Below are positions 59,753-63,700 of a stretch of 64,000 nt of DNA, in pieces. Positions within the stretch are counted from its first letter, which is position 1; every line of letters begins with the position of its first letter. Location of the stretch: contig NZ_JSEP01000003.1 of assembly GCF_001624695.1 (NCBI RefSeq), forward strand, positions 372,001 to 436,000, written 5' to 3'. This stretch comes from Labrenzia sp. OB1. GTDB lineage: Bacteria > Pseudomonadota > Alphaproteobacteria > Rhizobiales > Stappiaceae. Position numbers and translations under genes: made by a program. The notes under the pieces were generated by a model that searched no databases, was not told the origin of the DNA, and saw nothing but the letters and a program-made list of their open reading frames with translations.

Positions 59753-59785
59753 AGTGCCAGATCAGTGCCAGATCAGTGCCAGATC
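59753..59785. repeat. Three tandem copies of an 11-bp unit over the dehydratase stop
   Basis: AGTGCCAGATC is repeated three times without a mismatch, followed by AGTGA. The repeat runs from the intergenic region into the stop codon of the minus-strand dehydratase gene (stop at 59784-59786). It may be a slippage site that changes the gene's 3' end between strains. Confidence 0.85.
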
Positions 59786-61583
59786 AGTGATTGTCTCGTG
59801 GCAGTCCCCTGGTATGCGCCACATCCTGATATTTCACCGCCGGTTCCAGCACCATGCCCTTGTCGAACTGGCCGATCATGGCACGTTGGATTTCCTGCCA
59901 GGGGGTCTGGCTTTCTGCCACCTTGAATCCTCCGTCGGCCTCCAGGTCGGCGCGCCGCTGGGCCATCTCCCCGTCGGAGATCAGGATGTTGGCGGTTCCC
60001 TTGCGCAGGTCGATCCGCACCGGATCGCCGGTTTTCAGAAGCGCCAGCCCGCCCATGGCGGCAGCTTCCGGAGAGGCGTTCAGGATCGATGGCGAACCGG
60101 ATGTTCCGGACTGGCGGCCGTCGCCGATACACGGCAGCGAAGTGATGCCGCGCTTGATCAGCGCCGTTGGCGGCTGCATGTTGACGACTTCCGCCCCGCC
60201 CGGATAGCCGATCGGTCCCGTGCCGCGGATGAAAAGCATGCAGTGTTCGTCGATGCCGAGATCCGGATTGTCGATATTATGGTGATAATCCTCCGGCCCC
60301 TCGAAGACGATGGCCCGACCCTCGAAGGCCTCCGGATCGTCCGGGTTGGAAAGATAGCGGTTGCGGAATTCCTCCGAAATCACGCTGGTCTTCATGATCG
60401 CGCTGTCGAAGAGATTGCCCTTCAGGTTGATGAAGCCGGCATGCTCCTTCATCGGCTTGTCGTAAGGTTTGATCACATCCGGCAGGTCGGTGGTGATGCC
60501 CTGGCAATTCTCGCCCATCGATTTGCCGTTGGCGGTGACCGCACCGGGATGCGGCAGCTTGCCGTGGCGCATCAGTTCCGCGACAACGGCCGGCACGCCG
60601 CCGGCATGAAAATAATCCTCGCCGAGATATTCCCCGGCCGGCTGAAGATTGACCAGCAGCGGAACTTCGTGGCCCAGCCGTTGCCAGTCGTCATTGTCGA
60701 GCGCGACGCCGAGATGGCGGGCGATGCCGTTCAGGTGGATCGGCGCGTTGGTCGACCCGCCGATGGCCGAGTTGACGACGATGGCGTTTTCGAACGCCTC
60801 ACGGGTCATGATGTCCGACGGTTTTCGGTCCGCGTGAACCATGTCGACGATGCGTTTGCCGGTCTCGTAGGAGATCGCGCCGCGCTCCCGGTAAGGAGCC
60901 GGAATCGCTGCTGCGCCGGGAAGCTGCATGCCGAGCGCCTCGGCGAGCGAATTCATCGTGGTGGCCGTTCCCATGGTGTTGCAATAGCCGACGGATGGTG
61001 CCGAGGAGGCGACGAGATCCATGAAGCCTTCGTAGTCGATCTCGCCGGCGGCAAGCATCTCGCGGGCCTTCCACACGATGGTTCCCGATCCGGTGCGCTC
61101 GCCCTTGTGCCAGCCGTTCAGCATCGGGCCGACGGACAGCGCGATGGCCGGAATGTTGACGGTTGCCGCTGCCATCAGGCAGGCAGGAGTTGTCTTGTCG
61201 CAGCCGATGGTCAGCACGACACCGTCAATCGGATAGCCGTAAAGCAATTCCACAAGGCCGAGATAGGCAAGGTTCCGGTCGAGGGTCGCGGTCGGGCGCT
61301 TGCCGGTTTCCTGGATCGGATGCACCGGGAACTCGAAGGCGATGCCACCGGCCTCGCGGATGCCCTCTCGCACGCGCTTGGCAAGCTCCAGATGATGGCG
61401 GTTGCACGGGGAGAGGTCGGACCCGGTCTGGGCAATTCCGATGATGGGCTTGCCGGATTGCAGCTCTTCACGGGTGATGCCGAAATTAAGATAACGCTCG
61501 ACATAAAGCGCGGTCATGCCCGGGTTGTCCGGATTGTTGAACCAGGCCGCGGACCGCAGCTTCGGTTGTTTGGTGTCGCTCAT
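59784..61583 (-). CDS. IlvD/Edd family dehydratase, probably sugar-acid (arabonate/xylonate type)
   Basis: A 599-residue iron-sulfur dehydratase. Cluster Cys and motif residues are in [25 protein letters not shown] and [19 protein letters not shown]. The carbamylated or metal-binding lysine region is in CDKTTP, and [17 protein letters not shown] is present. The length and the [10 protein letters not shown] segment match L-arabonate/D-xylonate dehydratases better than dihydroxyacid dehydratase IlvD. The ATG at 61583 follows AGGGAAGAGG. No other sugar-pathway gene is adjacent, so the exact substrate is open. Confidence 0.87.
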
Positions 61584-61618
61584 GAAGCCTCTTCCCTCAA
61601 CTAAATCCGTTTGGGGTG

Positions 61619-61755
61619 GGGACTCATAAATGAAGATGAAATGGCTTCACTCCGGTGCCGACAGCGTGCTTGACCGGGCAGGACGTCCGCTCGGCGCACG
61701 CTTTCTGGCGGTGTCCCGCCATTCCCGATGCCACTTCACCTTCATTTATGAGTTC
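61619..61755. repeat. Long imperfect palindrome of about 135 bp upstream of the dehydratase
   Basis: Outer arms 61621-61648 and 61727-61754 pair with about four mismatches (best core ACTCATAAATGAAG against its complement). Inner arms AGCGTGC (61663-61669) and GCACGCT (61696-61702) and a central GGACGTCC (61681-61688) share roughly the same axis. The whole could form a long hairpin or cruciform. It resembles a short non-coding palindromic or MITE-like element. No target-site duplication is obvious. Confidence 0.65.
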
Positions 61756-61913
61756 ACACCCTGGGTCACGGGTTCATCGCTATTTGTAAATCCGTGACCA
61801 GAACAGCGCAGAGTGGATAAACACCAGTGTCATAGCGCTGTAAAGGCGCTGGCCGCGCAATTCTGTTCGACGGGAAATTATTCGGCTTTAAAGACCCGAG
61901 CGTCTCCAGCGAG
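61756..61913. other. Intergenic remainder after the palindrome
   Basis: With the palindrome, this makes a 330-bp gap between the dehydratase and the P-type-ATPase-like gene. I see no gene and no clear terminator in this part. Confidence 0.5.
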
Positions 61914-63467
61914 TCAGGCGATGGCAGGCCTTCTTCCGGTGTTGGCGACGGAAAATCGGGCGAAGGCCCAAAGGATCGCCAGGCAGAGTGCAAACAGCAT
62001 CGGCGCCACGGAAAAGGGCACGAGGAAGCAGGCACCGCAAAGTCCGGCCAGCGCCCAGATACCGGTCAGAAGCCGTCTGGCATGCAGCGCAAGCAGGTTG
62101 CGGCGCATGGCAAGAGACTTGAGGGCCGGAAACGCTCCGATGTCGTCGGTGTCGCTGACGGCGATCGGTACGGTGTCCTCCCGATCTCCCTCCGGAGCAG
62201 GGCAATCCCTGAGTTCAAGGGCAGTGCGGTCGGGCGAGAGTGTAAGCACGAGCGGGCTCCGCAGCCCCGCACTGGCGACGGCGTCCCGGGCGGTTTCGCC
62301 CGGCTTGGGATCATCGAGGAGTTCCAGCCCGAGCATGTCGCCAAGCGCTTTGCGGGTCTTCTGGCTGTCGCCGCTGAACAGCCAGGGAACCAGACCTTCC
62401 GCACGCAGGGCGAGGCCTGCGACACCCGCGTCCTGGCGCAGTGTTCCTTCAAGGCCGAGCACACCCACGACCCTGCCGCCGACCGCAACGCGCAGCACGG
62501 TCTTGCCGTCCGCTTCCAGGGAGCGGGCAATGGCATCGGCGGTGAAGCTGTCGATCTTGAGACGGTTGAGCAGAGCCGTGGTGCCGATCACCACCGTCTG
62601 ACCGCCCAGAAGGGCGACGACGCCAAGACCCGGCTCCGGCTCGAAACGGTCCGGCGCTCTTACCGCCACATGCCACTGGGCGGCCAGTTGGCGCAGAGCG
62701 ACGGCAACCGGGTGGCTTGACTGGGCCTCGGCCGAGGCGGCGACGGCAAGCAGGGTTTTCGGTTCGTTGTCGAAAGCCATCACATTGGTGACCATCAGAT
62801 CGGGGCCGGACATCACCGCGGATTTGTCGATAACGATGTCCCGGGCGTTTGCGATACGTGTGAATGCGCCCGGGCCGAGATCGCGCGCTCCGGCCGCCAG
62901 CGCAGCCTCATGGAACACCTTGTCCGCAAAGGCATTGATCCCATCGATAAGGTGCGGCCAGGAGAGCAGCAGTGCGGCCGCCACCGCCCCAGGCACCAGG
63001 GCGGGATCGACGATCCACCACACCCAGGCCGTTCCCGTCGTCAGCAGGAGCGACAAGACGGCTTCCCGCAGACCGTTCCTGTCACCTCGGGGAGGAAGCA
63101 GGGCAACGCCGAAGGAACGCAATGTCATCATGAATGCTGCCGAGATAGCCGGGGTGCTGGCAAGGTCGGATGGAACCCCGGCAAGCAGAAGCAGAACCGT
63201 AAATCCCAGAAGAACGGAACTCGTGGCGACAGTCATCAATGTGAGAGGGCGTCCGATCATGCAATTCATGGAAAAAGAAAGCGCAAGCAGAGAGAAAATC
63301 GAAGAGAACATGCCGAAAAACAGGACGCTGTATTTTTCAAAAATCAGGATCGGCTGGTCGGTCGCGTCGCTTCCCAGGGACATCGCGCTCATCGCAAAAA
63401 CCAGAAAGACCACTGAAGTCCCTGAGAAAAGAAACCAGAGTGAGGAAGAAAAAGATTTTTTCGGCAT
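61914..63467 (-). CDS. Degenerate P-type (P1B-like) ATPase, probable pseudoenzyme
   Basis: A 517-residue membrane protein that aligns in order with heavy-metal P-type ATPases but lacks their catalysis. About six N-terminal helices end in SWPHL (170s) where P1B pumps have the CPx metal motif. The phosphorylation loop reads D214-K-S-A-V instead of D-K-T-G-T. The nucleotide-domain His-Pro pair is kept (SSHPVAVAL, 252-253), as is GLGVVALLGGQTVVIG. The TGD motif is S365-G-D, and the GDGxND hinge is missing. Two C-terminal helices follow. Metal-binding domains are absent. The frame is intact, so it looks selected rather than decaying. Its role is unknown; sensing, a regulatory subunit or a structural part are all possible. 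The start ATG at 63467 has weak upstream support. Confidence 0.75.
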   Translation of the reverse strand: MPKKSFSSSLWFLFSGTSVVFLVFAMSAMSLGSDATDQPILIFEKYSVLFFGMFSSIFSLLALSFSMNCMIGRPLTLMTVATSSVLLGFTVLLLLAGVPSDLASTPAISAAFMMTLRSFGVALLPPRGDRNGLREAVLSLLLTTGTAWVWWIVDPALVPGAVAAALLLSWPHLIDGINAFADKVFHEAALAAGARDLGPGAFTRIANARDIVIDKSAVMSGPDLMVTNVMAFDNEPKTLLAVAASAEAQSSHPVAVALRQLAAQWHVAVRAPDRFEPEPGLGVVALLGGQTVVIGTTALLNRLKIDSFTADAIARSLEADGKTVLRVAVGGRVVGVLGLEGTLRQDAGVAGLALRAEGLVPWLFSGDSQKTRKALGDMLGLELLDDPKPGETARDAVASAGLRSPLVLTLSPDRTALELRDCPAPEGDREDTVPIAVSDTDDIGAFPALKSLAMRRNLLALHARRLLTGIWALAGLCGACFLVPFSVAPMLFALCLAILWAFARFSVANTGRRPAIA

Positions 63468-63700
63468 GGCCGGAAACTTTCGCCTTGTGGTTTTTTGCTG
63501 TGCCCCCGGTTTGCGTCAGTTGCGCCAGCTGGGGAGAAGATCGCAGGATCGCACTTAAAAATGCGGGATGGCGTTTCAGCGGGCAATGGCGTGAGGATTG
63601 GCTAACGGGTGCAATGCCGGCGCGAAATGCGGGTCCTGCGCAAAAGTGACAACCCCTTATACAGGGCGTCGATTGTTTTCTTTTTCACCTGGAGCAAGTT
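63468..63700. other. Region upstream of the P-type-ATPase-like gene
   Basis: No gene is supported. A 70-codon minus-strand frame at 63657-63869 overlaps a longer open frame in another phase and has no recognisable sequence. The region is less GC-rich than its surroundings. It should hold the promoter of the ATPase-like gene, but I cannot pick out a convincing one. Confidence 0.45.

Follow-up and report, generated by a model that had tools for sequence, protein, structure and literature searches.

Pseudoenzymes, whose catalytic motifs are lost while the fold remains under selection and may serve as a nucleotide-binding switch, are familiar from the kinases and phosphatases, and a review of the subject gives no ATPase example in its text (PMC10211241). 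Among P-type ATPases, the nearest precedent found is PfGCbeta from Plasmodium, a guanylate cyclase whose N-terminal P4-ATPase domain has degenerated; there the P-type ATPase fold, its signature residues mostly lost, is retained in a functional protein (PMC6592433). The literature searched, in which subscription journals are thinly covered, yielded no bacterial pseudo-P-type ATPase, so that this is weak evidence of novelty; a term search of a review of P-type ATPase enigmas returned none (PMC10654040).

The protein described here is encoded in a 64,000-nucleotide stretch (the window) of the genome of Labrenzia sp. OB1, a member of the genus Roseibium (formerly Labrenzia). It shares descent and gene position with the P1B-1 copper exporters known as CopA (A. 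fulgidus, L. pneumophila; intact orthologue L053, 915 aa). Common to both are a predicted 8-TM topology, the fold of the nucleotide-binding (N) domain, and the pocket residues. In contrast to CopA, the protein lacks HMA domains, the A domain with its TGE motif, CPC, YN, MxxSS, DKTGT, and GDGxND, and its conservation is shifted towards the N domain. It also differs from PfGCbeta, which is of the eukaryotic P4 lipid-flippase lineage and fused to a cyclase, in being a stand-alone bacterial P1B descendant without an A domain. The isolated N domains of CopA, HMA6, HMA8, and KdpB (2voy, 5lbd, 5lbk, 1svj) superpose on that of the pseudo-ATPase at 1.1-2.3 Å over 113-123 residues, but they are fragments of active pumps. 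By descent the pseudo-ATPase is a P1B-ATPase, but it does not pass the tests that define an active member.

In sequence searches, residues 144-408 of the 517-residue protein matched the P1B-ATPase family, with TIGR01525 (6e-21) and a ZntA-type profile (5e-20) as the best profile matches; CopA and CopB structures were matched at 1e-17 to 1e-13. In Pfam, PF00702 (HAD) was borderline, just reaching the cut-off, and PF00122 (E1-E2, A domain) gave no match. No HMA metal-binding domain is present. A sequence-only reading of the gene had reported an intact frame, DKSAV (D214-K-S-A-V) for DKTGT, SWPH (S169-W-P-H) for CPx, SGD (S365-G-D) for TGD, the absence of GDGxND, and a retained His-Pro pair (H252-P), all of which proved correct (Table 1).

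Table 1. Features of the pseudo-ATPase locus (window positions, upstream to downstream on the minus strand)
Feature	Position	Strand	Remark
Second upstream element, clade consensus GCACAAATcaTCGGCAnnnnTG	63637..63665	-	degenerate in window genome
Promoter-like element TTGCC...CATTTTT	63554..63588	-	about 90-120 nt upstream of start; consensus only
Pseudo-P1B-ATPase gene	61914..63467	-	517 aa, frame intact
Four predicted N-terminal TM helices (MA, MB, M1, M2)	63099..63452	-	AlphaFold2; residues 6-30, 44-64, 73-95, 105-123; poorly conserved
Short loop at A-domain (TGE) site	63075..63098	-	main clade: conserved LPPRG[DE]
Predicted M3-M4 and stalk, residues 132-192	62892..63074	-	AlphaFold2
SWPH (169-172) instead of CPC metal site	62952..62963	-	W170 and P171 invariant 35/35
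DKSAV (214-218) instead of DKTGT	62814..62828	-	D214 invariant, remainder lost
N (nucleotide-binding) domain, residues 216-340	62448..62822	-	61% invariant, main clade
E247...H252, first half of ATP-pocket signature	62712..62729	-	kept
G280-x-G282, second half of ATP-pocket signature	62622..62630	-	kept 35/35
SGD (365-367) instead of TGD	62367..62375	-	variable within family
P domain second half, degenerate	62118..62447	-	without motif III lysine and GDGxND
Predicted M5-M6, residues 445-516	61920..62135	-	YN and MxxSS copper ligands lost
IlvD/Edd-type dehydratase, downstream neighbour	59784..61583	-	conserved synteny marker

These losses extend through the family. Among 35 aligned homologues, none has DKTGT, a CPx motif in M4, GDGxND, or the P1B-1 copper site (CPC, YN in M5, and MxxSS in M6), all of which site is present in the intact orthologues. 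D214 is retained in every homologue and the TGT that should follow it is lost; the residue after WP at the former CPx site is H, Y, Q, F, or others. The replacement of TGD by SGD is a mild change, at a position that elsewhere in the family reads TGD, TGE, THD, TND, or a VSG-type sequence. As to whether the DKSAV form is conserved in a clade, the homology search showed that the exact spelling is not, but that a main-clade form, D-[KR]-[ASTM]-A-[VIL]-M-S-G-P, is.

The membrane part was examined in an AlphaFold2 model (mean pLDDT 83) built with the 35-sequence alignment. Eight TM helices are predicted, six before and two after the cytosolic part, which is the P1B arrangement, and the whole-length model matches P1B structures with Z of about 20. 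The earlier description of membrane and domain order as that of P1B ATPases holds only in part, as both the A domain and HMA domains are absent. In the model, an 8-residue loop is all that separates helix 105-123 from helix 132-153. By alignment, the segment 123-132 measures 10 residues in the main clade and 16-22 in basal forms, at the site where intact CopA orthologues carry the TGES domain. The entire A domain is gone, with a loop of 10-22 residues in its place, a loss that the sequence-only reading had not mentioned.

The gene lies in a conserved order: cyclase, M20 peptidase, peptide-binding protein, two permeases, fused ABC ATPase, pseudo-ATPase, IlvD/Edd dehydratase, and SCP2 protein. 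In two genomes from other genera (G045 and G047), the same slot (c3-gene-c1) holds an intact CopA, the G045 protein being 915 aa long with three HMA domains. In a tree covering the M4-P-N-M5-M6 part, the pseudo-forms are a single clade (100/100) nested among these syntenic CopAs; synteny and the shared WP replacing CPC (35/35) also back the nesting. Placement of the G045 CopA beside the pseudo-clade has lower support (85/73), and long branches leave the exact sister in doubt, the pseudo-clade stem measuring 1.8 changes per site. The pseudo-ATPase descends from the copper exporter CopA, with a single origin. Because the gene order predates the pseudoenzyme, it points to no partner. The cluster is headed by a membrane protein with 2Fe-2S and class III cyclase domains (L063:16763-18592); the cyclase gene adjoins the pseudo-ATPase in G015 and an intact CopA in G053, and the transporter genes are absent there.

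Upstream, the TTGCC...CATTTTT element is retained across most of the main clade, and GCACAAATcaTCGGCAnnnnTG is near-perfect in many Roseibium species. The conserved upstream region suggests that the pseudo-ATPase may be transcribed separately. A pattern search for GCACAAATcaTCGGCAnnnnTG in six genomes returned this locus only, plus 2-mismatch matches near control level; a regulon built on the element was rejected, since it is confined to the pseudo-ATPase locus in the genomes searched. Downstream, a short repeat of MITE/REP-like character lies at positions 61617-61775; its ends are palindromic (ACTCATAAATGAAG...), and the genome has about 16 other copies of it, full or partial, at 70-84% identity.

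The distribution of the gene was surveyed in 87 genomes of the family, 45 from Roseibium and 42 from other genera. Of the Roseibium genomes, 37 carry a homologue; none of the 42 others does, and only intact P1B-ATPases (CopAs) match there at the threshold used. Such conservation is far beyond chance. Form A comprises 31 species at 55-91% identity, which a tree of four neighbouring genes recovers as a single, well supported clade (23 of 31 species sampled in the tree); no genome without the gene was found within it. The gene is thus present in all 31 main-clade species, with one copy frameshifted. Form B comprises 6 species of basal lineages with 26-28% identity over the whole alignment. The frame is open in 36 of the 37 genomes. 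The frameshifted copy (L052, genome G042) is disrupted at about residue 407, and either a real event or an assembly error is possible. A frameshift or sequencing artefact in the window genome is ruled out; G042 alone has a frameshifted copy. No close homologue with intact motifs was found in Roseibium, the only intact forms being the orthologues of other genera, and recent decay in one strain is ruled out by the 37 genomes and by low dN/dS.

Eight Roseibium genomes gave no homologue, and the locus was inspected in seven; in the eighth (G022), a contig break falls at the locus. Four loci (L084, L085, L087, and L089) have no trace of the gene in a short gap. In three other basal Roseibium (L086, L088, and L090), the slot is filled by a galE-like gene that runs on the opposite strand. 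At least seven basal genomes thus lack the pseudo-ATPase and retain the flanking genes, which indicates that it is dispensable there. The basal branching order of Roseibium is weakly supported, and the number of gene losses is therefore not settled.

Selection on the gene was assessed by counting (Nei-Gojobori) in 17 main-clade species pairs. Overall dN/dS is 0.06-0.26; for the N domain it is 0.01-0.18, and below 0.1 in 14 of the 17 pairs. Across 30 main-clade sequences, 61% of N-domain positions are invariant, compared with 0-20% in TM segments and 27-34% in the second half of the P domain. Ten intact orthologues show 29% invariant positions in the N domain, 62% in M5-M6, and 59% in P1. Likewise, dN is higher in N than in M5-M6 for the intact pairs L054-L055 (0.25 versus 0.10) and L057-L062 (0.32 versus 0.08), although not for the close pair L055-L056 or the wider pair L053-L054. 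It is important to note that the pseudo and intact sets differ in depth, so that the direction of the difference counts rather than the exact figures. Conservation is inverted: few parts of CopA are less conserved than its N domain, whereas in the pseudo-ATPase this domain is the most conserved of all, and selection now acts mainly on it. The gene is conserved genus-wide, is open in 36/37 genomes, has a dN/dS of about 0.06-0.26, and arose once within CopA, all of which supports the proposal of a maintained pseudoenzyme. The catalytic residues are lost and purifying selection continues, the probable lack of activity being read from sequence. The further proposal of a new role is borne out by the inverted pattern, the specific role being a matter of inference.

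The alignment and model place an N domain with E, HP, and GxG in the pseudo-ATPase. In P1B N domains, the glutamate and two glycines contact ATP. Superposition of the modelled N domain on its A. fulgidus CopA counterpart (2voy_J) gives an rmsd of 1.1 Å for 117 residues (Z 21.4); against the N domains of HMA6, HMA8, and KdpB the figure is about 2.2 Å. In alignment, E-x4-HP and GxG of the pseudo-ATPase coincide with those of 3a1c, CopA crystallised with AMPPCP-Mg. All 35 homologues share E247, G280, G282, G295, and K322, and 33 have H252, which is replaced by Glu in two species; N296 of the usual G-N is Thr in the main clade. The corresponding histidine matters for ATP use in T. maritima CopA and in ATP7B (PMC4179477). 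The pocket residues being kept, the N domain probably binds adenine nucleotide. Conservation is not confined to the pocket: the conserved stretch reaches well past it, and DSFTADAIARSLEADGKTVLRVAVGGRVVGVLGLEGTLRQDAGVA scarcely varies across the main clade.

Every catalytic and metal-binding feature tested is lost, the protein descends from CopA, and selection is centred on N. The account we favour, with somewhat more confidence than doubt, is that of an exapted CopA, a non-pumping membrane protein whose N domain acts as a nucleotide-responsive regulator or scaffold with a membrane partner. In the Roseibium ancestor, the CopA at this locus lost its HMA domains, A domain, copper sites, and the catalytic residues of the P domain, losses that the sequence shows; with these gone, the protein would neither form nor break down a phosphoenzyme nor move copper, and pumping has presumably ceased. 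What remains is a predicted eight-helix membrane anchor bearing the N domain and a degenerate P domain. The N domain may still bind ATP or ADP, and either this binding or the N-domain surface would control or dock a partner protein at the membrane, in the non-catalytic manner of a pseudokinase. Counting against this account are H252E in two species, N296T in the main clade, and dispensability in basal Roseibium. The substitutions at H252 and N296, together with conservation well beyond the pocket, speak for a scaffold that binds no nucleotide, in which the N fold would offer a protein-binding surface only and pocket residues would be kept for folding. This is nonetheless unlikely, as the classical pocket positions belong to the small set retained even in basal forms of 26-28% identity.

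Other readings are less probable still. The window genome keeps two intact P1B-ATPases elsewhere, an HMBD/YHS-type CopA and a CcoI/FixI, and inactive paralogues often regulate active ones (PMC10211241); the pseudo-ATPase might pair or compete with these copper ATPases. Such a part is improbable, given that the copper ligands and HMA domains are all lost and that no copper gene is physically linked to it at the locus. No paralogous subunit is known to be required by P1B pumps. That the two pumps are a CopA-like replacement explaining everything was considered and set aside: it is compatible with the data, yet proves nothing about role. Quite improbably, the protein may be a stand-alone adenine-nucleotide sensor controlling a signalling enzyme, for which the nearest candidate is the cluster-head 2Fe-2S membrane class III cyclase; if true, this pairing would parallel the P4-ATPase domain/cyclase fusions of protists. 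A residual or rewired HAD enzyme, with D214 as the nucleophile of a phosphatase or phosphotransferase, would accord with the invariance of D214 (35/35) and the PF00702 match at cut-off, but it is very improbable: the TGT of motif I, the motif III lysine, and the GDGxND acids are absent or variable, and conservation is lower in the P domain than in the N domain. The stem branches are fast, at 1.8-2.1 changes per site, the gene is absent from basal lineages, and the G042 copy is frameshifted, which might be read as a decaying pseudogene whose disruption is still to come. That reading is scarcely credible and already contradicted by the selection data, with dN/dS values well under 1 for pairs of close species, the N-domain invariance seen across 30 species, and the frame open nearly everywhere.

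More generally, the locus offers a clean case, with intact sisters in the same slot, a catalytic loss whose place in the tree can be given, and selection that has shifted sharply to a single domain. It lets one ask what a transport ATPase can do with its nucleotide-binding domain after pumping ends. For Roseibium, an annotation as HAD or P-type ATPase need not mean metal export.
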